64,000 nt of DNA, taken from the NCBI GenBank assembly GCA_030141605.1, contig JAQGDQ010000008.1, positions 198,501 to 262,500 of the forward strand, written 5' to 3'. The translations under genes were made by a program, and so were the position numbers. The stretch is from Tubiluchus corallicola (lineage: Eukaryota > Priapulida > Priapulimorpha > Priapulimorphida > Tubiluchidae). Shown one piece after another: positions 150-47,275 of the stretch. Numbering within the stretch: position 1 is the first letter of the stretch; each line of letters begins with the position of its first letter. The notes beneath the pieces are model-generated. The model had not been told where the DNA came from, did not search any database, and saw only the letters and a program-made list of their open reading frames with translations.

Positions 150-3100
150 TTAGAATTTTGACACGCTGCCTTTCGATCTGGGATCAGCAGTACCGGATAT
201 TTCATCATCGAGCTTGGTCAGTGCATAGACAACACTGGCCGGATTATTTAATTTCAAGATATTGTGGCCTTTCGTTTGCAGACCATCCACGACATCTTGG
301 GGAACTTTGTCTAAAAAACAAATGCAAGAAATAAGAACAGCTTTAAACCAAAAATTTAAAGAATGTTTTTCATAACCACAAATTCCATATAAAAACTTGA
401 AAAGCATTAATATTTGCTATATTTAGCAGTCGTTGTTTGAAAGATTTGAACCTGCTATTTGTGACAAAATTCACAAAAACAAAAATTGGGATTTTCGTAA
501 CAAAAATACTTGCTTTCTTTACATATCTAGTAAACTTTTAAGTGCACAATGCAACGATTCTCCGATTATACCACAGAATTCTTGGTGTGAACCTCTCTTC
601 ATAATGCAGATTTCTTAAAGCGGTTTGGTTATTTGAGAATACATTCAAATGCTGTAAAAGGTTTATTACAGAAAACGAACCACAAATTGATCGAATCAGT
701 ACATCATACCTTCAATAAACACTTTGTTGCCAGGTAACTGTGGATACAGCCGTGGATAAGCCACTGCATCTGACATTGACAAATTGCCATTCATTACTCC
801 CAACAGGACCTGAAAAGTTCACACTGTGACTTCAATTTTGCTTATGAAATGTCATAACATTGAATAAACAAAATTAAAAAGCATTTCACAATGAACAGAA
901 GAGATTTTAATTTACATATTTTCGTGCTGAATTCGGGACTTCAGAAAGAGTAAGTTGAAACTCGAGTTCACAGACTAGTTAAACCCACGTATTTTCAGTG
1001 ATAATGAACTAGGGCAAAAGGATTATTAACCAATGGATATGTAAAAGGGAAATGTTTGCTGCAGACCCGTTTCATTCGAGGGACTAATAAAAAATTGATA
1101 ATAGGACAAGGGATTTGAGGCTTTTCTAATAACACGGGTAACTCATTCTGTTTGTTGATCAGGCCTTGGTTTATACAAAGCAATTAATTGGCAGTAATCA
1201 AATATGCTCATACCTGTACAATACTGCTGATTGAATTGACGCCTTCTGCAGAACCGAGGGCACCCCTCAATTGGCACGGACGTCCAATTTGCTTAAAGAT
1301 CACAGGCGTAGCATCGGACATTGGTCTTTTACCAGATTCTCGCTGATTATACTGCAATAAGAATTTTTTTCATAAGCATGCTGTCATAAATAATATACCA
1401 AGTGCAACATTTTAGGCAAAATCTGAAGCACTTCAAGCAAAGTGCAATCCTAAAATTGTCTGTATTAAAAAGTGCAAGGAAAAACGTGACTCCCAACTTC
1501 ATCAGGAGGGCTTTAGTCGACATTTCCCTTAACATAAAAAAGACGTTTGTGTAGCACTATTTGAGAGTCTTAGAGTTCTATGGGAAAAAAAGAACTGTGT
1601 TACAAGCCACCATGTACTGCTCTTAAAAAACGCCTCCACTAAGGTGAATGGGGGCAGTTCAGTTCTAAATTTCGTTTTAAAAATTAGCTAAAAAACTACA
1701 GGATTCATTGTTAAGTTATCAGTTATTTTCTGTTTAGCAGACAACTAGCAGGCTGTTGATCAAAACACGCACCATTACCATCTGCTACCAGCAAAACTAC
1801 GTGGAATGTTTTCAATTTCTGATTTTAATAATGAGTTCACGTTATCCTGAATATAAATGAAAAATGTTTAAAAACCTCATTACTGTTGAATGACAAATCC
1901 TGAATATCTAACATTCAACTAGCTATATAAGAAAAACATCACAGACAAGACCACCAATTACATTTTGTTAGGGTATCAGGACCAACAGACATCTACAAAG
2001 CATATTAACAAAATGAATCACTTTTGGGGAGAATATAACATGAGTAATGTATCCCTTTTCCTGCAATTTTCCATGACGATTCCTAACAAGAAAACCTACA
2101 AGATTATGAAATCTTTGAAAGCTGTTTTGATTTTGTGACTGCCAAAAAAACATAACACTAACAAAGTGGTTTCTTATCAATACCTTTACCATCAACAAAT
2201 ATGAACATTGCACGGCATGAGTATAATTAAACACCATGTTATAGGTCACATAAACATCTTATTATAACATACACTCATTATTTGATCTTTGACCGCACTA
2301 TTAAAATATATTGCACCTTAACTTTCCAAACTATTTGTTCAGTGCGAACCCATGCTACTGAAATTCTAATCATGTGGTTTACACGTAAACAATGCATGTA
2401 CAGTGTGGCAAAAGTTCAGAATATACAGGAAGAGAGATGAAACAGGAAAGAATGTGTTTTAAAAACCTTTGGCTAGAGGGTTCGTCAGCATTTCAGAGAA
2501 TTCAAGTTCTTTAAATACAAGTAGCATGAGAAAAGAGGTGCACTGCAGTTTAACAAATTGTAAAAGGAAGCAAAAACGAAAAAATAATACTTTCATTGGC
2601 AAATAATGGCAATTTAGACTTGTTAACAGCTAGTATTGTAAAATGAATAGTGCTGTAAAGTACAAACTGCTGCTACAAGCTAAATGGCTTATTTGAGCAA
2701 ATTTTAAAGATATGTGATATGACAAATAGCTAGCCACAATGACTCGCCGTAAAATAATGAAACTTTTCTACATTGATTACGTGCTCATGGCAGTGCTGTT
2801 CTTCCTAGTTTATTTACTTGGTGATACAATGAGAAAAGAACATATCATTCCACAGCACCAGATGAGACACACGCATCTGGATGAAGTCCAACCAGAATTT
2901 CAACTGACACATGCTACATGGAGAAACTCTCATTCAAAAACAAGTGATTGTGATTGTCTTGCTACAACTGGCTATGATTCTTATGGTGAGAAACGAGACA
3001 CCTGGCAACAGGTAGCTAACAAAGATGTTGTTGTATTCTCTGCATATCATGAAAAGAGAAATGGCAGATTTCCAGTAATTCGCATAATAGGGGTAGTGCC

Positions 3101-6100
3101 ATTTCGAAAAAAATCGGTAAATTTGTACTGTCACCTGATCAACAAAGAAGACACTGTAATACATGTAAGTAAAGTGAAGGTGGTTGTGATTGGAGAGCAT
3201 AAATACAGAAAATATTCAGCAGCATTTCTTCTGTGCAAAACGCCTGCAGATTTAGCGGTTAAATCTATCGGATTGTCGCCGAATCAGTACGACCCACACA
3301 TGGTAATACTAAATGTTCACAGCACAGCAAGTATTAACCAAACAGAGAATAAGATGGCTGTGTGTATATCGCCTTTCCACCAATACAACAACAGCCTCAA
3401 TGTGATAGAAATTGTAGAGATTAGTCAGATTCTAGGTGGTAGTATCATAAACATCTACAATAATTCCTGTTCAGAAGATGTAAGCAAAGTGCTTCAGTTT
3501 TACCAAAACGATGGGATCGTGCGCGTCATCAACTGGCCACTAGCAACAACTTTAAGTACACAAGGTATAAGAAATAAATATGGCAGGGTGTTTGACATTC
3601 ACTATGGTGGTCAATTAGCTGCCCTGCAGGACTGTGTGTATCGGAACATGGCTCAGCACGAGTACGCCGTCTTCACTGACATGGATGAAGTGCTGTTTCC
3701 ACACATGCATGGAAATTGGTCAGCCATGATAGCCAATCTGCATTCACAGCACGAGAAAGGTGGAAGTTTCATTTTTCAAAATGTTTTCTTCAAAATGAAA
3801 AACACCACTAACAACTCCGCCGCAAAAACAAGTGACATAGATGTATTCAATATCACTGTTCTAACAAACTTGCATAGGCACAGATACTTCTATCCACATC
3901 AGAGGCGCTCAAAACTGATCGTAAAAATACGAGCTGTGGAAGAAATGGGCATTCACTATGTGTTAAGCCTCATGCCTGGATACCACGAAGTTAACGTATC
4001 CAGCGAAGTGGGATTGTTACATCACTACAATGAAAAGCACAGTGACAACATTCTTAATTCAGTATATGATGATACGGCATGTAAATATGAAAAAACACTC
4101 AGACATGCAGTGCATTCAACATTGAGTAAAATAAAACAAACAACACCATAAACTTGACGCTCGTTTACATTCATTCTCTGCATGTTTATACCGTTGAATT
4201 AAGTAAACAACAGGTAACTTGAGGTCACAGAACATTTGAGTTTATGTTCCAAATGGTGACAAATTGTCATTTTTTAACTAATTTAAATTGCATTTATTCT
4301 CTAATATAATATCAATTAAACGTTGGATAAAATATGAATCTCCCGGTACCATTGAATACGCGATATTATATTATATTAGTCCAACTAAGACAATGTGAGA
4401 CTAATAGTAGTTACATTAAAATTTAGAAACATGCAGCATGGTAATTTATATGTAATAGTTACATGTACACATAACAAAATATCTAGCTGCACACTGATAC
4501 TACAATTAACATTATTGCCATTAAAAAATGTTTAAAAAATTGATTGCACACTCTAACTGAGCAGCTGCCAATAGAAGCACACACATTATTTGTGGACACA
4601 TAATACACAAAACTCACACTGATCAGGTGAATTCTCGTCGTTACACGACACGCATATGCAATTTTGTGTAGAGGTCTGCAACTACCTGCCCATACCAACG
4701 CAGAGATTGTGGGTTAAAAGCTGAGCTCTCATCCACAGAATATAATTACTTTCATCCATACGAGATTAGTAATTCCAAAAAACTTGTTCCATTAATGTCT
4801 AAATACATTATTTTCCTACCAATCTTTCAGTGATGAAGATCTAATTCCGTGGTTAAGCCAAACATATATTTACTGCCAGCCATTTCCAAACACATTGTTC
4901 AATAAATACAATAAAAAGAAAATCGAAAAAATAAATACTATTACCGATTACACTCTTTCAATATCTTTTTCTATGATATGCTTTGATAATTTTGTACTTT
5001 GTAACCCAACATACAGTATGCTGTTGCAGCAGGACTGGAATCCAGATATTATCAAACAGAGCTAATTAAGATGACATGTATTTGATGAACCAGCTGAGGT
5101 GTCTTAATCACACCCATTCCGATGAATGTACATCCCCCCCACCGAGAAAATTAGCAGCAAAAGTACAGAGCTGAAGCTACCCAAAAAAGCCATTTTCAAA
5201 AAATGGATAACCTTATTGAACTTATACACACGCACATTCAACCAGCAAAGACAGCCACAATATCAGCATGTCTGTCAGGAATCTTTTCTTAACAACTTCT
5301 AATCTTAAAGCTCTCACATTTCAAAAGACTTTTCCAAAGCTGTTGAAGACCCATCTGTATAATGAATGGAGCTCATGGTGCCACCACATAATCTCAAGTG
5401 ACACCTGTCAAGCGACAAGTGACACCACAATAAAGTACATTTGAAAATGTTAACTGATAAGGAGTGTTAGCAAAAAAACCTTCTTAATTAACAATGTCAA
5501 AATAAAAAAAATCTTTAGAGCTTATATACATGTATGAAAGAGCTCACCAGTCTGGTAATAAAGGGAAGTACTGGTACTTCTACTACTAATGGTGCTACCT
5601 AGGAATTTTCTTACCGGATATGGTGAAGAATCAGTGAAATCTTTCAGAGCATCATTTAGTAAAATCCCAGAATCGGTCATTACTCTCGATCCAAATTCTG
5701 AACCAAGAGTACTAAAAAAGCAATAAAAAAATTCATTTATATTAACGTAAGAAATGCAAAAGCTAAGTTTGCGTTTAAAAAAATGAGTCATTATAGACTA
5801 CTGAAATTGTACCCAAAAATGTGACTGTGTCGACGTCCAAAAGTTTCCACATTTCTTTTGCTATAAACTTACACATCTAAGCTCTAACAATGTAAGTGCT
5901 ATAAGCAGTTTTAATATGAGTTAGAACAAAAGAGATGCAAAATCAACTATAAACAGCCAACCTACACTATGGGATTACACACCAAGAAGTTAAGGCACAA
6001 AATCGAAAATGAAATTACTGACCTTGTGACAGAAACCATCAGGTCATTTTTGTCGATAATAGACACGTGCGTACCGCCTCTGTCAAATGAACTGTACTCG

Positions 6101-9100: not shown

Positions 9101-12100
9101 AAATGCTAGTTTTAATGCCTGTAAAATAACAAATAAAAATCAGCCTTAATGTCAAAACCACAAAAATAATTTCGCATTACATTTGAAAATAAACCAGAAA
9201 ATATAGACACTTAAAAAACTAAATGATTTTCCGTGTTACCCATTGTGATATCAGTGGTATGGTACCTAAAAACAATTTTTTTGTTCACAAGATAGTTTTC
9301 ACAATTTTACAATTGATGCACAACAAAAATTATAAAAAAGAAATTAAAAAAATGGCAACCAAAGAAAAACACCCTCACAAATAAAACTTCCTAAGTCAGT
9401 ATCAGAAGTCGTAGGCAGAGAATTGACAGGCAACACGAGCAAAGCTCACCTCAACAATGCGATGGTACGTAAGGTTATTACGTAGATTGCCACCATGAAT
9501 CTTGTAACCTTCCAAAATATTCATTGTTGCAAGGAGCAATACCCCAGCCGAGGGGGCATCGGAGGTGATAATTTCATTGTTACCTAAATACACTTAATCA
9601 TCAGGCACAGCTCCAACTGAAGTTCTAAGCAAGCATGTCATATTCAAGCAAAAGTGCATTTATGAAAAATGATACAGCACTCACATTTTCTAAAATGGTA
9701 AAATATGCCCTGCACGAACATTTTGTCATATAACTTTGCAAAATAAGAAATAAAAATCATAATACTTTCATTCGAGTGTTATTTTTGACACATTTTATTA
9801 ATTTTAATGACATTTTTAGTTAAACTTGGTTTTCAAACTAGCAGACTTCATTCAAACCCTGAAAGTGTACTCGAGGATGATTATAAGAGTGTTTCATCTT
9901 TTTAAGTTTTTTTATAAATGTAATACGGTAATCGGCAACCCAATATGCAGTAGTCAGTGAGTGCCCTTACTTATCAGCTGTGACAAGAGCCAGAACATAT
10001 ATCTCAGCACTAAAGACCAGCCATTAATCAAGATTAGTCACTGATCTAGCAGAGGATTCTTAGCTTTGTTCAGACGTATACACATCCTGAGCTGTGAAAT
10101 CTCAAAAACGTTTGCATGATAATAAAATATAGCTAACAGGGCAAAATGCCACTACATGAAACCCAACTCAACTAGAACAACTCTTTCTGCAGTAATTCAA
10201 CATTTTTTCCTTTTGCTGTAAAACTATAGCATCACTTGTTTCGCAAAATATTTGAAAAATGATTTACCGGTATATGTCACTTTAACAGCATCCCTCTGAA
10301 CCGCATGATACTTTATCAGATCCATTGGCATCATCAATCCACCAGCATTATTAACCTGAATAATAATTAAAACCTGTTTCTCACAGTTATACTGCAAGTT
10401 CACTTAGCAAAAAGGATAAAATTGGCAGACCACAGTTATCACTTCAATATATCACTTAAAGTAGAAGTGACCCCTAAGACCTAGTATATCGACAGTACAC
10501 TATACATTACTTTCATCAAATTTAAAAATTAAAGTGAATGCAACCAGATTGCAGTCAGGCAAGCAACATTAAGAAAAATAATAATCTGCTACCCTATTTT
10601 CTTCAACAAAATTCATTAATATTCCTACTTACAGACTAAAAAAACAAAAATTATCATTTCAATATATCACTTAAAGTAAAAGTGACCCTTAAGACCTACT
10701 ATATCGACAGTACACTACACAATATTTTCGTCAAATTTAAAAATTAAAGCAAATGCAACCAGATTGCAGTCAAGCAAAAGTAATAATCTGCTACCCTATT
10801 TTCTTCAACAAAAATCGTTAATATTCCCACTTACAGACTAAAAAAACAAAAGTTCTAATCTAATTCAAAAGTAAGCCACCTTTAAGAGAATTTTATGCTC
10901 TCAAAACGGTGTGTGGTTTCCTAAAAAGAGCTAGCAATGCGATTAATCATGTTCACTTAAAAAGTCTAGGTCTCACTTGAATTTTGTTTTCAGTTCACAG
11001 CTTGCCATAAATGTTTGTACGAACAGTAAAAACTTACAGAAGTTAGAATGCCCTTCGACAAATACCCATCATAAAAGGCAGCAGCACCATAGTTTGCAAT
11101 AATTCTCAATGCTGCTGCGAGGTCGGGTCTAAATACAATTGTGCCAGGTTTTTTCCAAGAGTTCTTGTCATAGTAGAACAACGAGAGGTTACCTAGTTCC
11201 GTACTTGTGAATTTGCTCAGTGCCTTTCCTGCAATGAAAGATGCAGATGCAGTGAGCTCATACATTTATGTGCTGATATCAAGCTTTGAAAATTATGCCT
11301 AAAAAGATGCTAAGAGTAGAAGACTTGGAAGAACATTATATGCTACAAGCTCCACTCTTTGGAATCTAGACTACTAGAAATATGATAACAGACGATGCAT
11401 ACATTGTTTGCTTTTTTAGGCAAACTGAAAATGCCTTTATATAATAACATCTGTTATGTAACATATGATCATTATATATTGCATATTATATAATTATCTA
11501 ATATATATACATATTAGATAATAAGTTATATAACAACTTGAGATGTATCAACAATTATTACTAAACCATTTTGCTATTTACTCAGAAACTTCAAAAAGCT
11601 ATGAGTAGGCCAGCGAGTAGTTGTAAGCACAAAATGTGTTTTTGCAGTACTCTGAGGTTTAGTCATGCGGAAAATTTTTCATTAACTTTTTCTGGGTAAT
11701 TGATCAGTGAAACAAGCTGTGTCCGTAAAAGTATGGAGAAAAAGGTGCAAAATGAGCTGATTATATACCGTGTACATGACTAAATGTGCTATTAAAACAA
11801 CAGTTGAAAAGTTTTATACTGAAGACGAAATTACTGAGACCAAAACTGTGCTATGAGAAACAATTGATAAAGCACCAGTAAGCATATTCAAAGCAGGAGA
11901 AATTCCAACCTCAAATCAGCTAATAGAGCTAATACAGATAATATTCTGACTGCATTGCATAAGCCTGGTGACGAAATGCTATACCAACATTCTGCTATAA
12001 ATTTTGAAAGGACTCCAAAATTTCCACGTTTAGAACCCGATGTGCTAGGCAAACTCAATAAAACTGAAGCAGCATTACCTGAATGTGTCAAAAATACAAG

Positions 12101-23159: not shown

Positions 23160-23945
23160 ATTCGCATCCATAACTTTGGGCAAGCACTTTTTGTCTGCAG
23201 TCGAAAAAAATGATAATAATAGTAAAATGGAAAATGTGAAAATTGATCAAATCACCCGTTTCAAAGTGGTTTGTATTCGATAACCGATACTTAATATCGA
23301 ACGTAAAAACAGAAGGAAATAGGTTTATGTTGGGAACAGAATAGAACACTAGCCGAAGTAGGACAATTGGCGTACATGGGCTAATCCAAGTAGGACTCGT
23401 CGTACATGGGCTAGCCCCGTACATGGACAAATAATTATTTTCTACTAAGTAAACGGGCTAGCGAGCTATGCGCCCTACACAATTTTTCTTTTTAAAGCAT
23501 TATATACGTTTAATGTTATGATGATATTAATAATTGGGCTAATAATAATGACATTATTGTAAAAAATACATTTGTAAATTGTCAAGGACAATCCATCATT
23601 ATTATAAAGTTACTTTTTTTTCTAAAACAAATTTAATTTTATGTTTATGATGACATAAATCTCAACAGAAACCGCCTGTGCCCTACTTGGGCTGCCCATG
23701 TACAACACTGCTTTTCCATAATGCGCTTTAGCGGAAGTGTCCTAGTTCGGCTAGTGGCGTACTCCGCGCCCTGCGGTTTGTTATTCGAGACCTTTATTAA
23801 AGGAAACTTTCAAACGCCTCAGTTCACTTCAATTCTAGTTTATTTACGCTGTCTAGTCCAAACACAGTGATACAAAAATAGGAACTAATATCAAAATATA
23901 GAATTTTTTGACTGCAGGCGAAAAGTGCTTGCCCAAAATTAACAA
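23160..23945. mobile_element. Inverted-repeat element carrying MITE M1 copy B (23332-23772)
   Basis: Arms of about 50 bp, at 23162-23215 (with TTTGGGCAAGCACTTTTTGT, CTGCAGTCGAAAAAA) and 23893-23945 (TTTTTTGACTGCAGGCGAAA, AGTGCTTGCCCAAA), are reverse complements with few mismatches. Between them lies MITE copy B, with its own ends ACACTAGCCGAAGTAGGACA and, inverted, CCACTAGCCGAACTAGGACA. Only non-coding DNA is present. Confidence 0.65.
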
Positions 23946-23949
23946 CACA

Positions 23950-25145
23950 AATTATGTTGTCTCGGACACAAATAATTGTCAAAATTGACACCTGGCTAAA
24001 GGCAAACAAATTAACACTCAATTATAAAAAAACTAAGTTTATTCTCTTTACCAATCACAGAACAAATAGTTGTGTAAATAATTTCCGAATTAAACTTAAC
24101 AATATTAACATAGATCGATCAAATGAAATTAAATATTTAGGAATCCACATTGATGACAAGTTAAACTGGAACTCACACATTCAACACTCAACATATAAAA
24201 TAAGTAAATTAAAAATAAATCAATTTATTATCTTATCAGTAAATATAAAGAAAAATTAATATCTCACTATTCATCTTTGTAGATCTATGATATGCTAAAA
24301 GTAGTGTAACTTTTTGCTAAAGTAACTATAATTTATAACTATTATTTTCCTTACTTTCATTTAAGTTGAAATCCTTTTAGTTGAGCTAATTTTGTTATTT
24401 CTAATAAGTTTTCCATTATGTGTAAATTGAATTCACTAATAATCTCAACTGATGCTACTCAAGTTTATATTGCATTTCATTTATTTAAATACTAGATAAA
24501 TTAAATACTAATGAGCAATTCACAGTGAATCCGGTTATTACAATGCCTCACTTATATATATACAGATAATTTGCGTCACGCTCAAATGTATGTTATGGAG
24601 GTAAGGTAACCTTTTGTATATCTTTAATATTATGTAATAATCAACGCTAATTCTAAAGAATTTTAAGATACTTTGGCTTTCAACTCTTTTCTTCATGACT
24701 AAACATACATGTTTATCCACTTTTGCTAGCTACAAGCGAAGAATTAAATTTTTTCTTCCTTTGGCTCTAGATCTTCATAGTATTAATTTTAAATACGTAT
24801 AGGTTAAATTATTATTTAAACATAATCACGTGTGTCTCTTTTTTTCCATTATTTTATTATAAACTAACACATTCGTATAATAATTCAATTTTCATTCGTC
24901 TTAAATGCAAAATCTGATAATTTTTAATTACCTGGTACATGCACATTAATTAACTAATTATATTAGTGACAATTCTGAGAGGGTGGCTGACCTCGATAAC
25001 TTCGCCACTCTTTCAACACTAATCAATAATTACTTTTGCACTTTGTAACATTATTGTATGTTGTACAGATTTATAAATCATTTTGTTATGTATTTTGCTA
25101 TTTTAAAAATGGCGACAAACTAGTAAACTTACTTACTTACTTACT
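23950..25145 (+). mobile_element. 5'-truncated LINE fragment with (TTAC)n tail
   Basis: Frame 23954-24259 encodes WLKANKLTLNYKKTKFI and IKYLGIHIDDKLNWNSHI, which match the region after the YADD box of jockey/CR1-type reverse transcriptases. The sequence then decays. A typical LINE 3' end follows (around 24975-25125), closing in a short (TTAC)n run at 25125-25144. No endonuclease or RT catalytic core is present in this copy, so it is dead. Confidence 0.8.
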
Positions 25146-25329: not shown

Positions 25330-26790
25330 AGCAGCATGACAGTCTATCATCATCATCATCATACGCCAGTCTAGAATGCAGAACACTTCTAGCAATCACC
25401 AAGATCTTAGACAATGGCTTATTTTTAGGGCGAAATAGTATAACTTTAGTTTTATTAGGATTTAGGGATAACGTATTCGCTAGAACCAGTCAGAAATTTG
25501 TTGCAGGACAGCATTCATTTGACTTATTAGATGATTTTTCATATCCATAATATAGCTGTATCGTCAGCATACTGGGTTATTTTAATATTATGTTGGAGAG
25601 CGTTAATATCATTTATATAGATGAGAAATAATAAAGGCCCAAGGATCAAACCTTGAGCTACTCTACAACTAACTGTTTGCTCAGAAGAAATGATCTCATT
25701 AAATCTGACAGACTGTCTTCGATTTATTAAGTAGCTTTTAAACCATGAAAGTGCAATCCCCTTAATTCCATAGAATGAAAGTTTATGTAGGAGAATATTA
25801 TGGTCCAATATTATGTTGAACGCTTTTGATAACTCACAAAAGATGCTAGCAGTAATAGAGTTCAATAGCTTTAACTAGTTCATTGTATACATTTATTAAT
25901 GTGAGTTCTGTGGAACATCCGTTACGAAACCGAAACTGGTTATCATTTAATATGTGGTATTTATCTACAAATTTATTTAGTTGACTATGAACACATCTTT
26001 CAAGAAATTTAGAAAAAAAGGGTAGCAAAGACACCGGCCTATAATTATTCACTATGGTTGCATCTCCGGATTTAAATAAAGGCACAACTAAAGTTAATTT
26101 CATCTTATCAGGAACTATACCAGTGCTTGGAGAGATATTGATTAAGTGACATAATGGTAATGAAATTTGGTGAATTACATCTAAAACAATCCTAGGAGAA
26201 AAATTACAAATATCAGAACTTTTATTAGGATTAAAGGTTTTACTGATTTTCATTATATCCTCGGGTGTTACTGGAGTAAAGAGAAATGAATTCCTATAGT
26301 TTCCGTGTAAATAATATTCATAATTTACTGCTATGGGACCGACTTGGTTAGCTAAATTACTAATGTTAGCAAAAGTATCAGCTATTAAAGAATTAGTAGT
26401 TATTATTTTGTTATTTATATTTAATTTGATGTGAGTATTACATTTTTTTCGATTCATCATCTCTTTCATTACAACCCAGGTTCTTTTTATATTGTTAGAA
26501 ACGAACTCTAATTTATTTTTATAGTAAGTATCTTTAGAAATTCTTATTAGTTTATTTAATTCCTTACGATACTTTTTGTATCTGGCAAGTACAAATGGAT
26601 CATTTTCTTTCAAAGTAGATTTATACAGTTTGTTTTTTGTTTAATAGATTTTAATAAACCATAAGTGAGTCAAGGGCTTTTAGGTTCTTTAGATGATCTG
26701 ACGGAATTCTTTTCTTTAACATGCACAAAGTAGACATCGGAAAACTTTTTATAGAATAGTTCCATTGCTGAATTGGAAGAGGGGACTAAG
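25330..26790 (-). pseudogene. LINE (jockey/CR1-like) ORF2 fragment, frameshifted
   Basis: Minus-strand reading begins near 26790 with the linker before the RT (a KSP..T..LLKSIKQKTN-like segment), then KENDPFVLARYKKYRKELNK. RT motifs follow: NNYRPVSLLPFFSKFLE, NDNQFRFRNGCSTELTL, then after a frame break near 25855 DHNILLHKLSFYGIKG, GLILGPLLFLIYINDI and the catalytic QYADDTAIL at about 25545. A further shifted part (LSLNPNKTKVILF) runs to about 25400 and ends in a (TCA)n run near 25350. Frameshifts and stops show that the copy is inactive. It belongs to a different copy from the adjacent plus-strand fragment. Confidence 0.87.
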
Positions 26791-30011: not shown

Positions 30012-31018
30012 GAATGAAGGTAAAAATGGCACAGGTAGAACTGGCACAGGAAAAATGGCTCCGTAAAAGTGGCACAGGAAAAAAGACACAAATAGAAAAT
30101 TAGGTAAAAAATGGCACACGTAAAAGTGGCACAGAAAAATTGAAACAGGAAAAAATGGAATGACAAGAATGGCACAGGAATAAATGGCACACTTAGTAAA
30201 ATATGTGCTTAGAGATACAGTGGGGGATAATTTAGGTATTTTTACTTCTACCAAGGAAGTCATCCTTCAAAACAACTTGTTCGTTTGTTTGTTTGCTTGA
30301 CTGCTGGTTCCCTTGGTTTTTTGTCTGTTATGGCAGTAAGGCTATTACGCGAAACCTATCTCATAGATTTTCCAAGAAAATTTATGAAAAAAGGTGCCAA
30401 AATGGCAATCTTTTCCCGGTTCTTTTTTGCAAAACTTGACCGAATACCAAGTACAAAAAAACGGGAAGCATTTCGTGGAGGTCTTGGAGGGAGTGCTTTG
30501 TACTTCTTTTTTGTCATCTCCACCTGGACAAACATTAACGAGTTAGTTCCAGTTCCATTTCGTGACATTCTTGTATGTGTATGTGTTTTTGCTTATTAAT
30601 GTGTATAGCCTCATAAGGTAACTTGGTATGTATATATTTGTCAGTCTATTACCATCGCCAAAATTAATGGTGAAAAGGTACATAAATGCAATGTGCAACA
30701 TTCGTGCATTATTCATTATGAACCCATTTGATTAACTAATAATTTGTGAGTCTTTTGGTAATCTATATAATACCAGTACAGATAAATTTATGTATGTTTG
30801 CTTCTTTATCTTCGTGTTAAAATTTTTGAATCAAATGAATCAGATGAATAAATTTAGGATTGTCTGGCTTTGGCAGAGATCTGCTTCCTACTGAGCACAT
30901 TCTAGTTTTATTATGGAAATCAAATGCATCAAAATAACATATGTGCCATTTTTACTGTGCCATTTTTACCTAGTTTCTCATTTGTGCTATTTTTTCCTTT
31001 GCCATTTTTACATCGCAC
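30012..31018. mobile_element. Array-ended element family E1, copy 1
   Basis: The left end (30012-30195) is a run of degenerate GGCACAGGTAAAAAT words beginning GATGAAGGTAAAAA-like. The right end (30945-31018) carries the same word inverted (GTGCCATTTTTACC). The interior holds a TTTGTTTGTTTGCTTGACTG stretch and no convincing gene; the 104-codon frame at 30285 has no known motif. Copy 2 at 43321-44170 shares ends and architecture. The element looks like a non-autonomous DNA transposon with subterminal minisatellites. Confidence 0.7.
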
Positions 31019-38416: not shown

Positions 38417-41280
38417 GTGGTTACTAAGAAACAACAGTGTGCTAAGACGAGTGCTAGTGGTCACACACCGATAAAGCAATGTACACGGTGCGGTACTAAA
38501 CATGGCAAATTATATCCAGCTTATGGAAAATATTGCAAAAAGTGCCACAAAAGAGGACATTTTGCAAAATGTTGCATTACAGTTATGCCGAAAGTATATA
38601 CAGTCGATGAAGAATTTTTTGTAGGACAATTTCGTCTGATACACCATCCGCTGAGTGGCTAAGGCCGGTAGGAGTGAACAAAACTGTTGTAGTTTTTAAA
38701 TTTGACACGGGTGCAAATGTGAACATAATTACACAAGCAGACTTTCGTACTTTAATAAATAAACCAAAAGTGCACAAAACGAATGTCAAGCTTAGTGGTT
38801 ACTCTGGCGCAACAATCCCAGTGTTTGGAAAATGCATCATGACAGTAACACACAAGAACTGTGAGTTTAAATTGCAGTTTTTAATAGTTTCACATGATAA
38901 TTCTCAGTCGATATTAGATATCGATGCTTGTGAAAAACTGCAGCTTGTTAAGCAAGTCTTGACAGTTAGTCAGCATAAAGATTTTGGTGAATATTCTTCG
39001 TTAATGGATCATTACAGTAATGTATTTCAAGGTATTGGCTGTCTTCCAGGTGAACACACAATTATTATTGATGAATCAGCCCCAAAAATATTTCGGCCGT
39101 GTCGCAAGATACCATTTGCATTAAGAGACTACGTTAGAACAGAACTAGAACGTATGGAGTCGATGGGTGTCATAGCGAAAATAGATGAACCAACAGACTT
39201 CGTAAACAGTATGGTTGTCGCGGTCAAGAAGAATAAAGTAGACATCAAGATATGCCTAGATCCCAGGGATCTCAATCGTGCTATAAAGCGAGAACATTAC
39301 AAATTGCCGACTAGAGAAGAGATTGTGTCACAATTCGCAAATGCCAGAATATTTAGCAAATTGGGTGCTTCATGTGGATTCTGGCAGATGAAACTAGATG
39401 AGGCAAGCTCCAAGTTATGTACGTTCAATACACATTTTGGGAGGTTTCGCTTTCTTAGTTTTGTATATCATCAGCACCAGAGGTATACCATAAAGCAATT
39501 CATATGATTTATGAACACTTGCTTGGTGTTGACTCATCTATGGATGATATAATAACTTGGGGTGCTGACAAAAAGGAACACGATGAAAATTTGATGAAGG
39601 TGCTTGATCAAACAAGACAGGTAAACCTTAAGCTCAACAAAGAAAAGTGTGTGCTTGGTGTAGATAAAGTGACTTTCTTAGGGGAAGTCATTTCAAAGGA
39701 AAGTGTGCAACCTGACCCAACAAAAGTTTAAGCAGTAAAGGAAATTTTACAGCAGGAAGATAAAAAAGAAGTACAGAAGTTTTTGGGCATGATAAATTTT
39801 CTTGGAAAATTTATACCTGATCTGTCAACTAAAACAGCACCATTGCATCAACTGTTGGATAAACAAAGAGTTTCTGTGGTCACATGAATAGCAGCAAGCA
39901 AGGTTACAGTTAAAACAATTACTTTCTGAAGAACCCGTGCTTAGGTTCTACGACACAGAAAAACGTATTAAAATATCTTCAGAGCTGTATTATTACAAAA
40001 GCATGATGATCAGTGGCTTCCCGTGGCATACGCCGGTAGATCGCTTACAGATGCTGAGACTAGGTATGCTCAGATAGAGCCGGAACTTTTATCATAGTTT
40101 TTGCTTGTGAACGTTTTCATTAGTTCATATTTGCTATTGTCTACAGGAAATACAGCAGTATTGGCCTATTCGTAGTAACCATTGTGGGTGGTGTAGTATT
40201 TAAAGGAACCATAGTAGTTATTTCAAGTTCTCTTCACAAAGAGATACTACCGAGAATACATGAAGGCCATCAAGGAATTGAAAAATGCAAACGCAGAGCG
40301 CGTGAAGTGCTTTATTGGCCTAACATAAACCACCATGTTACAGAAATGGTACAGAAATGTGAAACTTGTCAGAGATACCTACCAAGTCAGCAAGTTGAAC
40401 CATTAATATCACACGAAGTTACTAAAAGACCATGGGAAAAGCTTGGCCTGGATTTGTTTTCCTGTAATGGTAAAGAGTTTGTCATACTGACTGACTATTA
40501 CTTGACTTATCCAAAAGTAGCAAAGCTCAAGTCTACCACTAGTGCAGCTGTAATTAACTTCGTTAAATCTGCATGTTCACGACATGGTATTCCGGATGAA
40601 ATCTTCAGTGACAATGGTCCACAGATGTCAAACAAGGAGTTTTCTGATTTTACTAAAGATTGGAACATCAGTCATATGACCTCTAGTCCCGAGTACCCGA
40701 AATCGAATGGAATGATTGAAAAAAACAGTATTAAAAAGACGTCGCGCAGTCATGATGACTTCTATAAAGGTTTGCTTGCATATCGTAGTACACCACTTGA
40801 CATAGGGTTGTTACCAGCTCAACTGTTAATGAACAGAAGAGTGCAGTCTATATTACCAATAACGAGCAAGCTTCTATAAGTTCCAGGAAATAAGATCATT
40901 CTTGACTGGAAATGTAGTCAGAAAATCAAACAGAAAAAGTGCTATGATCGCAAAGCTCGTCCACTTGCTGAACTTAAACCAGATGAGAGAGTCTTAATCA
41001 GAAATCCTGTTAGTAAGATGTGGGACAGGAAAGTTTCCGTGATTACGAAAGTGCAGAAACGTTCATATCTTCTCAGATTGGATAATGGAACTGTTTTGAG
41101 AAGGAATAGATCTGCTATCAGACTGAAACCAGTGACTGTAATTCTGAATTGATTGATTTGCAACCACAGGGAAATGAACACTTTCAGCAACAGCAAGTAA
41201 GACCAAAAGTTGAACAACACAAGATGACTAGATTTGGAAGAGTAGTGAGGTGTCCAGAAAGACTGATTGAAACAACGTGA
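38417..41280 (+). pseudogene. Ty3/Gypsy retrotransposon pol relic (K02A2.6-like)
   Basis: Order: nucleocapsid zinc knuckle CKKCHKRGHFAKCC (38535), aspartic protease FDTGANVNIIT (38700), RT with FRPCRKIPFALRDYV and ICLDPRDLNRAIKREHYKLP, a frame break near 39460, then a SMDD-containing strand in place of the usual Y-DD box (39540). RNase H is next, with stops (DAETRYAQIEPELL, about 40045). Integrase 40184-40879 has a CETCQRY zinc site and core DNGPQMSNKEF and YPKSNGMIE. The C-terminal tail, with MTRFGRVVRCPERL, stops at 41280. Stops and frameshifts make it non-functional. A purine run (AGAAAAAGGGAG, 41757) may be the polypurine tract; a 3' LTR was not delimited. Confidence 0.9.
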
Positions 41281-42600
41281 ATTTCAGTTTTGAATTTCAA
41301 TGCTAATTCTAGTTTCAATGTTCAAGTTTCATTTAAGTTCTTAATGTTTCAAGAATTTGTGCACAAAATAGTTAAGGTGCATTTTTATAGTTTTTACAGA
41401 GCAATGTAACTGACTTGTGGATTAGAAAACTACTAATTCTTAAATCATACTGTTAAATCCATTAGTGATACTGTTACAACAGCTATAATGTTAGAGTTAG
41501 TTAAATAGATCTTTCACTACAATTCAGTTTTAAATGAAACTATAACACTTCTGTGATCGAAATTTATGAGAAACCAGTTTATTGCATGTATAACTAAACA
41601 TTTCATATACTGTGGATGGAGCTCTACTGAAGGCTGTCCAAAAGTTCAAAATTATCTGTAGTGTAAAAGTTAACATGTTCAACTTTAAAGTTCTAGTTTA
41701 AAGCCTATGTAATTGAAGTTTGAAATCTAAATTTGGGTTTGATAAAGTGCTTCTTTTAGAAAAAGGGAGTAACAAATCATAGTTGAATTGAATTAAAAGT
41801 TGATCGTGATTGCGTGTCTAAAAATGATAATGTCGTAACCTGCATTTGTTAAACTAAATTTTGGAGTAAATAATTACTTTAGTCTTACTTAAGTGTTATT
41901 ATATATATATATATATATGGGCCCAAACATTACAGACGAGAGCTGACAGTATTTTGAGCCACGTAAATGTCTGAAGGCTCTACCGCAATATATATTTATA
42001 CACTATGGTTGTAAAATGTGCAACACCACCAGGTTTAAGACTGTAAGTACTCTAAGCCTCACCAAATATGCCGATTTTTCTTTATAAATACAGTTCTCAA
42101 CGCACGCAAAAACTTCGATCACTCTGAAGTTAAAAAAACAATTGAGCATTCTCGATGATAATGAATTTTGTTGTATAGGTTTATTGTCACCTTTTGTAAA
42201 ATTATCTAATAGTACTGCTATATTAGTGTGTCTGAGAGGCATTTATGACAAATTTTCAAAAGTCTCAGTTGAATTTTATGTAACCACTGATCTTTATTTC
42301 TGCAATATTTAAAAACTATAATAGAAAAGCGAAATCGACTGACATTGGCTAATTTTATGAAAAATTACATAGTTTAATTAGATTGACAGTTAATTAATCA
42401 ATCAAAAATATTAATGAATAAATCAAAATCAAAACTAAATAGCAGTAAACTTACATCGTTGCGGCATATATCTAATGATAAATTTCGCTAGCTTGCACAA
42501 GACAGATCGTTCACATATACTACTGAACAACATAACTGTCAATGCCCACACTTTAAAGTTTTCTGGTAGATGGAGCCATCTTGGCTACAAAATTAAAATT
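41281..42600. other. Sequence 3' of the Gypsy relic
   Basis: Probably the 3' untranslated part and perhaps LTR of the Gypsy element, then unassigned AT-rich DNA. It includes a short (AT)n run at 41899-41918. Short frames have no recognisable motif. Confidence 0.4.
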
Positions 42601-42604
42601 CATT

Positions 42605-42752
42605 AAGCCAGGTTCACACTGGCCTTAATACCGCTACAAAACTAAATTGTACAGCACAAAGCTACTAGTGCCGTTGGTGTCACAGACTTACCAATTCAGC
42701 TTCCTGTATGCTTTAGATGCTAAGAAGCCAGTGTGTCTGAAGCCATTTTTAA
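42605..42752. mobile_element. Short MITE-like inverted repeat (PIF-like ends)
   Basis: The left end GCCAGGTTCACACTGGCC and the right end, inverted, GGCTTCAGACACACTGGCTT resemble each other and the CACACTGGCC ends common in PIF/Harbinger MITEs. The element is about 145 bp with no coding capacity. Confidence 0.35.
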
Positions 42753-43111
42753 ATATATCAGCTCCCACAATTTTGTTCCAACAAAGCAATGTCTACCGAA
42801 GGTAATGCGTTTGCTAGCGTAATCCAGAATGCAAATTCACTGTCGGACGCGGGGTACATTTTACAGGACAATATGCTGCCTCGAGGACAACTAATTTTTT
42901 ACGAGAAAAATCTAAGGTGGATTTAATTGGGCATTGTCTTTTACTGAATCAATCGTTTTTGCTACTGGCCAGTATTGCCCCTTGAACGTTTACACCACAA
43001 TTAGATACAGATTCTGGGAGCGGCACGTTTAGAAATTACTACCACTACGTATGTTGTTTTAGACATTAAATCAACATCGAATCTTCCGTAAGTAGACAAC
43101 TTGGTGTAGGC

Positions 43112-45906
43112 CTAGTCCATCTCTTGTTGCCCTGGATAAAATTGTTGTAATACAACGTAATAAGTGATGAACACGCTCATCGCCTAAATATAAAAAATGT
43201 AATTATTATATATTGTCCGCTACAAGCGAAAACATTTTGCTTATCCAACACATTTTAGTGAAAGAGTTGAACTGAAAGACACTGCACAGTCGGGCCTGAT
43301 TTTCTCTTGCCGTGCAATTCGGATGAAGGTAAAAAATGGCATTTCTAAATAGAGTACAAGTGACAGGGATCGGTAAAATTGTACAGGTAAAAATGACACA
43401 GGAAAAAATAGCACAAATGGAAAGTAGAAAAATGACACAATGTAACTTCCATACAAGTAAGTTGCTTAATAAAACTAGAAAGGCACTCAGTAGGAAGAAG
43501 ACATCTGCCAAATCAGAATAATCCTAAATATGTTCGACTGATTCTGTTGATGGAAAAAAAGCAAAGATAAACAGAAGGACGTATAAAAATATACCTAAAT
43601 AAGTAATTAAATATTACATAGCTAGCGAAATAACACACAAAATATATTGTTCCCAAAATAGAATTATAACAACAATGCACCAACAATGCACCACCATTGA
43701 TGATGGTTTTGCAAAAAAAACTAGCAAAAACGCGTCTATTAGCATCAGTACCAAGATGCGTATTCCTTGTCATGCACCCAACTTCTCCTCAGCGTTTCAT
43801 GGAGACCAATTAAGTAGTTTCTGCTTAATCCTGTTAACAAACAAACTAACAAACCAATGGCGATGAAATCATAACCTTATGGAGGTAATCACATAATCGT
43901 AACCGCAATCGCAAATCGTTGTTTTGCGTAATGCCGCCAAGCAAACAGACATACAATGAAAACATGTAACTTCCTTGGCAGAGGCAAAAAGAATTAAAAA
44001 CATTATTTTTAAAAGTAATCCTAACTCTTAATTTTAATTTACTAAGTGTGCTATTTTTTTTCTATTTTCCCACGTGTGCCTTTTTTCTTGTGCCATTTTT
44101 AGCCAATTTTACCGAGCCATTTTACCTGTGCCATTTTTAGCTGAGCTATTTTTACCATGTATCGTGCCATTTGTGTGTTTTCAAAGACGTCAGGATTTTT
44201 TATGTTAATGTCATATCTTCTGAAACAGGGTTTTGCTGCGCAGCCTGCATTGATATTGATAACCCCATGTGGTGTTTTAGTCTCGTTCATACTTACTGTT
44301 AATATAAATCCTCTATCGATAACGAAAAACTTTCCAGCTGTAATTCCTATTCTTTGTCCCACTATTCTTTTTACAAACAAACTTATCTGAAAAATACATT
44401 GGTATATAATTATCACTCTTTGTGTTAGCAATTCATGCCTACCAAATATGATTTAGAACTACATGGCGAATAATCAGTACAAAACTCTAAGAATTTGTCG
44501 GACCTAATTTTATGATGCCAGTTTGCCATACCGAATAATCAACTTCTTAACCTACCAGCTCTATTCAATTATCATTACAGCAAAATTGAACCTGAAATTG
44601 TTCGTCCTTTGATAACCTTGACGCGCACATGTCATGCAATAGCTCTAACGGCTCCCCTGCCTGAAAAAAATAAAAAATTGAAATCTACGCCTATAGTCAG
44701 CATAAAGTATTATTATTTGTCAAAAATTTTTAGACGCTATGCCAGTTATTGTTTCTTTTAACCCATTTGTCATAACTACAAGTTTTGATTAAACTTTTGA
44801 AACTTAGTAGTGGTTGCAAATTTATGAAACAATGAAAGATCAAAAACAAATTTTAAAAGATCCGGTACAGCAACACTTACTTCATCGCTGAGCAATCCAG
44901 AAGCAAAACTCAGTGAAATCAACGAGAGTCCAACCCCTAGCAGACAGACGAGCGTATGAAGACTGTAGAGGGTGTGTGCACTGAAGCTAATGTTTGACAA
45001 CACTTGTAAATCTAACAAAATTATGCTAACCATAGATGTGATTGCAATTGCTGTGAATGGCGCAAAGACCTGATCAGTGTCACACAGAAGTCGACAGACT
45101 TTTTGGTGCCGTTGCCTATGTAATCCAATGTTTCTCACAAGATTTGCATCAGCTAACATCACACTGTATACGGACACAAATTCTTTTCTGAGAACAAGAA
45201 TCATAACGTTTAGCAGAGCTGGGTAACCCCAAGCACATGCGTAGAGAATCTCGTAAAGCAGGAACATTAACGCATACGTAAGAAGGTTGAAAAATCCAGG
45301 GGAAATCCGGGAAATGGGAGGCATTTGCAGTGAAATAATAGCGCCCATGGCCGCAAGTACAGTTATGTCCAGCATAAACGCCACTGATATACACTTGCAG
45401 CATTTATTCACACATGTGAGGGTCCCTCCATCAGCTTCGTTATCCCGTTCCAGAAAATAACGTTCCCATTTCATAAATAATTTCTGAATCTGGTTATGCC
45501 GCAAGAGGATTGCAATAAGATTTGTGATACTTTGAAACGTTATAACAATATTCGGCAGCTGCACCCGAATCAGTAGACTAACATTAGCATCCTTAGTTGC
45601 TAAGATGTAGACACACATTGAAAAACATGTACAAAACCAAGTAATTTCGACAAAAACTAGAATAGCTGCTACTGTCATACCGCAATTACTCCGTTGATAG
45701 ATATTAGAAATGGAGAAAGGCCATGCGCCAAAGGTTTTGAGAATCATAATAAGTGGACGCAAGGCACGCAGAAGTTTTCGCTCTGCAATTATATCCGTCG
45801 GTCTCATTACATGCAAATTCTTGCTGATGTCAGAAACTCCGTCCTCAGAACTTAAGGAAGCAATTAGAACACGATGTCCACGTGAGAGTGACCGCACAAC
45901 CGCCAT
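43112..45906 (-). CDS. Gustatory-receptor-like (GRL) seven-transmembrane protein, 4 exons, 418 aa
   Basis: Exons 44881-45906, 44592-44660, 44297-44386 and 43112-43183 join with every intron in phase 0 (418 codons plus stop). Three phase-0 introns near the 3' end are, to my knowledge, a hallmark of the insect GR/OR and GRL superfamily. The last exon carries ITYYVVLQQF, matching the TM7 signature TYhhhhhQF. The exon before it (RIVGQRIGITAGKFFVIDRG) fits the conserved segment ahead of TM7. TM segments lie at about 77-102, 114-133, 171-192, 206-235, 284-305, 316-340 and 397-411. The N-terminus is long and presumed cytosolic, as in this inverted-topology family of ligand-gated channels. The start at 45906 has G at -3 and +4. 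The donor of exon 2 (gttcaa) is weak. The ligand is unknown. Confidence 0.88.
43321..44170. mobile_element. Array-ended element family E1, copy 2, in the last GRL intron
   Basis: The left end starts GGATGAAGGTAAAAAATGGC and runs as degenerate ACAGGTAAAAATGACACAGG words to about 43440. The right end (44045-44170) has the inverted word GTGCCATTTTTAGC repeated at least four times. The interior contains a minus-strand TTTGTTTGTTAACAGGATTA stretch that recalls a sequence I have seen in many invertebrate repeats. It lies wholly inside the intron between GRL exons 3 and 4, so it need not harm the protein. Confidence 0.7.
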
Positions 45907-45999
45907 CGCTTAAGAGTCATTTAAATTTAAATCAAATTTAATTTAAGCAGGATATCCAGTAATGTCCAGATGGCTATAAATACATAAACTGCACCTTTA

Positions 46000-47275
46000 C
46001 TGAGAAATTACGCACTTCATAAAAAGAAGCTTAGCTAAGTATTCAGATGAAATTCAAGTGATCAATAATTTTGTCAATGGCACGAGGTTTCAGCTTACAG
46101 ATGTTTTTACACTCTATTAATGTTTTTGGTAGATTCGCTAAATAGCTTCTAATAAAATGCTCCAATAATAACGTCTTTTGTAACTGTTAAAGACTTATGT
46201 TAAGTTTACTTAGAGGGACTTGATTAACCGGATTGAAAACTCTTGGTCAGTTCGTCAGAGTGCGCTCCATTTACTTGAGTGTAATAACGCTTTCTTGGTT
46301 CACCTGAATAGCTTCAAATTAGTTTACTTGAATGTCTTACTGAATGTCTTACAGTTTTCTTCATCGCTAGCTTGCTTGAAGTGCTTCAAGCTTGCTAATT
46401 CACGAGCTGAATGCTGCTGAATCACTTCATGCATGTGGTCTCCTCTTTACAACTTCGTCGTTGAATGCCTTATTCAATCGTTCAAGAAGTTCATTCCTTA
46501 GCAAGTAGCTTCAGTTTTTATTAGTTCATTTCAATTATTGCCCTGTTGACTTAATTCACTGTTAGCGGATCAAGTGGCTTTCCTCTGTATTAGTTCACTC
46601 GAATGGCTTCACACGGCACATTTTTTTTCAGCTGAATTGCATAGTTTCATTCGCTTGCAGTTGCTATGAAAGAATGGCTACGCTCTTAAGAACGATTTTG
46701 TAATGTTCTGACGCTAGCTCAGTTGTTTACCTTATAATTAACATGTGCACGCAGGTATAAAAATCAGCTGTTTACTCTATAAAGTATTTGGTCGTCCATC
46801 TCGCAAATGAATGGTAAACAATAATGCAAACACTGAAATTGTTTGACTGTAAGTGAAGCACTTCAGCTATTGATGGCTATTAAGGCAGAAAAGAAGCGCA
46901 ATACCGCAAAACTTGTGTGTATTTTGTTAAAAAAACGATATTAAAGTAATTAACAACCGTGACAACTAATTTAAGAACGGAAATATTGGAAATCATCTAA
47001 TTTACCAAAACGCCAGACAGTTCATGTTGTTCTTCAATGCCTTATTTTCAGTCTCTTACAGCCGAAATTATTTACCAGACAAATGCTTTTCTATTAACTA
47101 ACAAGATCGTTTCATTTCAAGAAGAATGTCACCAAATACCACTGTCGTTAGCAGAGTAGTTACAAGAATCCATTTTCTTACTTATTGTATCTTTACTTTC
47201 TAACTGCAGCCATTTATAGCTTTGTTTGAAGCGGTTTATACAATAATAAAGGTATTGTGAAGTCTAGTATTGTAA
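46000..47275. other. Upstream region of the GRL gene, no gene seen
   Basis: The 46240-46640 part is enriched in degenerate words such as TTCACTTGAATGGCTTCA (GTTCACCTGAATAGCTTC, TAGTTCACTCGAATGGCTTC), suggesting an old minisatellite. No splice-supported frame was found. The GRL promoter should lie at its left edge. Confidence 0.4.

Follow-up and report, generated by a model that had tools for sequence, protein, structure and literature searches.

Members of the insect gustatory and odorant receptor superfamily carry a motif in their seventh transmembrane helix (TM7), TYhhhhhQF, which is treated as diagnostic, though not definitive, for the superfamily (PMC7746228). For the Grs of Daphnia and for most of those of insects, PMC2680840 describes a last intron placed six codons upstream of this motif, and the rule for Gr intron position is also given in PMC9998090. 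The structure paper for the gustatory receptor (GR) BmGr9 assigns roles to 436-TYLVILIQF-444 and to T429 (PMC11100771). In Drosophila Gr39a, as described in PMC2204066, four large exons are alternatively spliced to three small conserved ones.

We have analyzed a gene of this kind in a window of 64,000 nt, i.e., the whole stretch of DNA under study, which corresponds to C215:198501-262500 in an assembly of 343.5 Mb in 2344 contigs. The window sequence is free of any N. The gene is intact and has not been described before, but is ordinary within a receptor family that is already known. Its product, to judge from the sequence, probably has seven helices and serves as one subunit of a non-selective, ligand-gated cation channel belonging to the insect gustatory/odorant receptor superfamily. 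With a host outside the arthropods, the receptor would be named a GRL.

Structure of the gene

The gene is divided into four exons on the minus strand, with junctions read from the sequence. The features of the locus are listed below.

44881 to 45906, minus strand: exon 1, 1026 nt, 342 codons, placed by its start codon, frame, gtaagt donor and hydropathy; product predicted from hydropathy to be a cytoplasmic N terminus plus TM1-TM6
44592 to 44660, minus strand: exon 2, 69 nt, AGEPLELLHDMCASRLSKDEQFQ, predicted cytoplasmic linker between TM6 and TM7 (leave-one-out 3.1e-5)
44297 to 44386, minus strand: exon 3, 90 nt, ending ...GITAGKFFVIDRGFILT, last residue T395 (leave-one-out 6.7e-17)
43112 to 43183, minus strand: exon 4, 72 nt including the stop codon, TM7 with TYYVVLQQF (leave-one-out 9.3e-6)
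43332 to 44156, no strand assigned: dispersed repeat inside intron 3, ends approximate, its two inverted arms made up of degenerate GGTAAAAATGGCACA-like units

All four exon lengths are divisible by three, and introns 1 to 3 are all in phase 0, with donors gtaagt, gttcaa and gtaagt and acceptors ending in cag, cag and tag. The spliced open reading frame runs for 418 codons to a TAG, with no stop or frameshift inside. An earlier note had proposed this intact four-exon, 418-aa model with three phase-0 introns; every coordinate and all three junctions agree with the sequence, the six splice sites are all GT or AG, and the frame is unbroken. Exon 1 alone is open over 342 codons, for which the chance is ~3e-11 in one given frame at the local base composition. 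An Rfam search of 41000-47000 at gathering scores gave no match.

The same note placed TM7 in the last exon of 72 nt, and this exon is indeed recovered by a profile made from the exons of relatives (9.3e-6). The last intron lies six codons upstream of the TYYVVLQQF motif. The anchors of the claimed signature are kept (T402, Y403, Q409 and F410), although a glutamine occupies the last of the five h positions in TYhhhhhQF. The exon had further been described as lying 1.1 kb away behind a transposon. The intron is indeed 1113 nt long and contains a dispersed repeat, but such a length is ordinary for the family. We therefore reject the view of this intron as unusual, since the last intron ranges from 332 to 1826 nt in the eight relatives measured. 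Because several Daphnia Gr models lack the last exon (Table 1 of PMC2680840), automatic gene finders could plausibly miss the last exon here.

Membership of the receptor superfamily

The spliced protein matches the Pfam model 7tm_7 (PF08395) with 48.9 bits against a cut-off of 26.6 (E = 7.6e-13), over residues 49-410 and positions 1-366 of the 370 in the profile. Superfamily membership had been claimed previously, with a profile search named beforehand as the check, and the match lies above the curated cut-off. The protein of exon 1 alone has no Pfam match at E up to 10. It is thus the small exons that decide recognition, in keeping with the earlier note.

A second model, Trehalose_recp (PF06151), which stands for sugar receptors such as Gr5a and Gr64, also matches (26.9 bits, cut-off 21, E = 2.3e-6), with its best stretch confined to residues 263-414. 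The odorant receptor model 7tm_6 (PF02949) gave no match to the spliced protein at E up to 10; it matches two of nine family members, at best with 3.3e-6. The Pfam search of the spliced protein returned no GPCR family, and on that ground we reject a GPCR.

Comparison with the PDB was made in two ways. A phmmer search with the single spliced protein found no GR or odorant receptor (OR) at E up to 10, and what it did find, ribosomal protein L7 alone (E = 0.045 or worse), was taken as chance. A family profile was made from nine spliced members, i.e., the window gene and eight relatives in the same genome. With E values as high as 10 allowed, this profile matched 27 PDB sequences, 16 of them ORs or GRs; every rank with E below 0.01 was an OR or GR, and the first unrelated match stood at 0.2. 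The best values were those of MhOR5 (2e-16), Orco (3.9e-12), OR28 (1.2e-11) and Gr64a (1.2e-8), together with three chains labelled 'Gustatory receptor' (8.3e-5, 7.4e-4 and 3.2e-3) and Gr43a (1.2e-3 and 4.6e-3). For the three 'Gustatory receptor' chains and both of Gr43a the match is confined to the C-terminal part. Some of the chains labelled only 'Gustatory receptor' are presumably BmGr9. PF08395 is matched by all nine full gene models in the family alignment, a support that is partly circular because PF08395 had itself led to some of these loci.

Relatives in the same genome

A search of the genome with PF08395 scored 63 candidates, and at least 44 of them matched with E no higher than 0.001. 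An identical trio of matches, identically spaced, recurs on five contigs (C1796, C2016, C2136, C2140 and C2209), so that the 44 represent no more than 32 separate places. The window gene is one of several dozen such genes in the genome; it is absent from the PF08395 list, presumably because exon 1 alone scores too low. With the window protein as query there were 15 matches among 47 candidates, four of them at the gene itself; those elsewhere have 23-32% identity, the best relatives being at about 32%. Stretches of 2489 and 1657 nt are shared at ~97% identity between C908 and one C339 gene, so that the two could be allelic.

On C1796, the segment 632572-647403 holds four complete receptor first exons and a partial fifth, and the sole third exon detected among them is likewise partial. 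Three of these first exons recur on four further contigs at the same spacing, perhaps through redundancy of the assembly.

We sought small exons downstream of 22 first exons, the window gene included. A third exon was found for 15 of them, amounting to 12 distinct third exons since four first exons on C162 share one. The first scan gave no third exon for C908, C2218a, C2218c, C821a, C821b, C2009 or C215n. Flanks searched afterwards contained third exons positioned to fit C2218a and C2218c, and a genome-wide exon-3 search provided ones fitting C821 (E = 0.005) and, weakly, C2009 (E = 0.22); C908 and C215n were still without one after all searches. The third exons, with boundaries placed by eye, are 90 nt long with an AG acceptor at 11 of 12 loci, C501 having no AG there.

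The anatomy of the window gene recurs among its relatives. A 69-nt exon 2 of the type A(E/G)(E/K)P... is present in all seven members of its clade in which it was sought (the window gene, C162a, C2279, C2334, C339a, C339b and C719), and the last exons of the six clade relatives begin six codons upstream of (T/S)Y. The first-exon donors are less certain, with none listed in the scanned part of the frame for C339a, and alternatives possible for C2334 and C2218b. In a second clade (C2218b, C2218d, C1387 and C2060) no exon 2 of the A(E/G)(E/K)P type was found; exon 1 runs on. A tree of 20 first exons separates two groups (98/98), with six rows outside both, and places the window gene with C908, C2279 and C339b (96/93). 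A leave-one-out profile control recovered 7/7 second, 11/11 third and 10/10 fourth exons, in small searches with ~600 residues of background and the database size set to six sequences. The exon-4 training peptide of C339b began with V instead of S (one residue in 17), with no visible effect on the exons found.

Topology, pore residues and possible role

Hydropathy analysis gave 11 peaks above 0.8, which we grouped into seven helices by taking 208-252 as one and omitting 48-66. Under this grouping there are 28 lysine and arginine residues in the predicted inside loops and three in the outside loops. The topology would be N inside and C outside, as in ORs and GRs, a prediction that depends on our grouping of the helices. 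Structure prediction of exon 1 alone, without an alignment, gave an unusable fold (pLDDT 37.8, pTM 0.24).

The C-terminal residues can be aligned one by one with those in the BmGr9 paper (PMC11100771): T395 corresponds to T429, T402 to T436, Y403 to Y437, V406 to I440, L407 to L441, Q409 to Q443 and F410 to F444, with Q408 replacing I442 at motif position h5. From this residue-by-residue match it follows that the hydroxyl rings, the gate layers and the pore-turning glutamine are all kept.

A mechanism can be proposed by analogy with those data on BmGr9. Four subunits would assemble around TM7 (S7b), with T395 and T402 forming two hydroxyl rings, as do T429 and T436 in BmGr9. V406 and F410 would provide two hydrophobic gate layers, like I440 and F444, and Q409 would rotate into the pore upon opening, like Q443. 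A small molecule would bind in a pocket among the remaining helices, and its binding would open S7b via S5. Most likely the channel would act in a sensory neuron as a chemosensor, whether external or internal.

The two clades differ at position h5, the neighbor of the gate glutamine. It is polar or charged in six of the seven members of the window gene's clade (Q, R, R, R, R and H; A in C719) and hydrophobic in all eight TM7 exons of the other clade. A polar or charged residue here could tune the outer mouth of the pore.

The gene might instead encode a channel of the superfamily that is not a chemoreceptor, acting in development, in internal metabolite sensing or in some other non-sensory role. 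Non-insect members of the family may serve non-sensory roles, and the host here is probably not an arthropod, to judge from searches for cuticle proteins that came back empty and had no positive control. Reportedly, work by Saina and colleagues in 2015 found a developmental role for a Nematostella GRL. Benton et al. (2020) describe information on the expression and function of GRLs outside arthropods as very sparse. Against such a role, the family of the window gene has diversified, forming tandem arrays, and any two members share little identity, as is usual among sensory receptors. We regard a non-sensory role as unlikely, and a chemosensory one as the preferred reading.

Alternative first exons and a possible shared pore module

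The contiguous stretch C162:411500-432000 contains four first exons, whose phase-0 GTAAG donors are equivalent, and a single set of exons 2-4 above thresholds. The genome search with the exon-3 consensus, in which all but one of the 35 candidates scored gave E values of 1 or lower, listed one match on C162. The locus at 413940-424231 of that contig thus comprises tandem first exons and, downstream of them, the single detected set of small exons, an anatomy like that of Gr39a.

Could the window gene form part of such a complex locus? A second first exon on C215, at 288363-289439, lies on the same strand 44 kb upstream of the window gene, outside the window, and might also be spliced to exons 2-4 of the window gene. 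Its donor, gtgagc, is in phase 0 and equivalent in position; the contiguous stretch C215:198501-290500 has no small exons above thresholds besides those of the window gene; the exon-3 consensus search lists C215 at the window gene only; and the C162 locus is a precedent in the same genome. Yet the two first exons on C215 are not close, with a best local match of 28% over 54 aa (E = 0.007), and the protein of the upstream one finds as a query only itself and one weak match. In the tree its branch is very long, at 2.67 changes per column, so that small exons of its own may escape detection. Moreover, splicing would have to pass over another first exon and remove an intron of 44 kb, far above any intron in the gene models here. 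Since the upstream exon is very divergent, it offers a lead to sharing and no more, and we think it quite unlikely that the two are joined. The window gene itself has a single first exon nearby.

The widest reading would be that a non-arthropod animal has expanded an arthropod-style GR family with Gr39a-like loci, in which first exons encoding the ligand-binding helices are spliced onto a shared pore module, exons 2-4 of the window gene being such a module and serving also the first exon 44 kb upstream. We hold this full combination to be improbable. Among the literature matches listed, we recognized no report of the window gene or of Gr39a-type loci outside arthropods, which leaves their absence from print unproven.

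The host

The gene could be an ordinary arthropod GR in an arthropod host, rather than a non-arthropod GRL, given that the structure of the gene, its motif and the expansion of its family all agree with arthropod GRs. However, the Pfam cuticle domain PF00379 and a typed RR-2 cuticle sequence both gave zero candidates in the 343.5 Mb. The absence of cuticle proteins is itself unproven, because both searches had no positive control. The earlier note had called the gene non-arthropod-looking, and the empty searches, with this qualification, fit that description. An arthropod host seems to us improbable, and a GRL outside the arthropods is the reading that we prefer.

Searches for mollusc haemocyanin, the pattern FMRFGKR and COX1 (one candidate scored) gave no match in the genome, again with no positive control. 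With the Drosophila Ubx homeodomain as query, homeobox exons were found on C2201, C1217 and C412; we take these to be of Hox type, one with a UbdA-like tail. Such a tail points to a protostome. Taken together, we read the host as a protostome that is probably no arthropod and may be neither a mollusc nor an annelid.

The repeat in the last intron and the neighborhood

The inverted arms of the intron-3 repeat, near 43332-43381 and 44104-44153, are 72% complementary. At least 117 matching pieces of the genome, the query included, were found from 40 scored of 752 candidates. The one frame scanned in the repeat, 43516-43788, gave no Pfam match. It is reasonable to regard the repeat as a transposon. 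A second copy of the repeat family lies at window positions 30018-31011, with arrays of GGTAAAAATGGCACA-like units.

That the gene is a non-expressed relic which has kept an open frame by chance would fit the one repeat insertion in its last intron, but is very hard to credit with 418 codons unbroken, all six splice sites GT or AG and the pore residues kept.

Elsewhere in the window, a 473-codon frame at 2730-4148 (plus strand) matches glycosyltransferase family 92 (5.9e-40), and a frame at 10993-11265 (minus strand), perhaps an exon, matches gamma-glutamyltranspeptidase over part of its length, a short stretch (5.1e-8). Frames of LTR-retrotransposon type, with aspartyl protease, integrase zinc finger and integrase core, lie at 38611-40876 (plus strand). 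Reverse transcriptase frames, in pieces, lie at 25542-26640 (minus strand) and 23912-24256 (plus strand), and may be of LINE-like origin.

Significance

The analysis provides a complete, checkable gene model in a family where annotation can easily lose the last exon, together with relatives of matching anatomy. The gain from the single gene is modest, and the question of shared pore modules, which its surroundings raise, is of more interest than the gene itself. Should the host indeed lie outside the arthropods, the C162 locus together with the expansion of the family would make the age of first-exon swapping onto a common pore module testable, the question being whether such swapping is an old trick of the superfamily or an invention of insects.

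Comparison with known systems

Among the insect ORs, MhOR5 and Orco are aligned by the family profile over most of their length; unlike ORs, the window protein has no 7tm_6 match. The likeness to Drosophila Gr39a, as described in PMC2204066, lies in the C162 locus, where the four first exons are large and a single set of small exons, three in number, was detected. There the sharing is deduced from anatomy alone, and the window gene differs in having a single first exon nearby.

The resemblance to arthropod GRs (BmGr9, Gr43a and Gr64a) extends to a 7tm_7 match over nearly the whole window protein, three C-terminal phase-0 introns, the T-Y-Q-F anchors, and the gate and hydroxyl-ring residues. 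In contrast to those receptors, the window protein has Q instead of a hydrophobic residue at h5, as a single query matches none of them in the PDB, and comes from a host that is probably not an arthropod. With the animal GRLs, as presented by Benton et al. (2020), it shares membership of the superfamily, the TM7 motif, the 3′ introns and, apparently, a place outside the arthropods.
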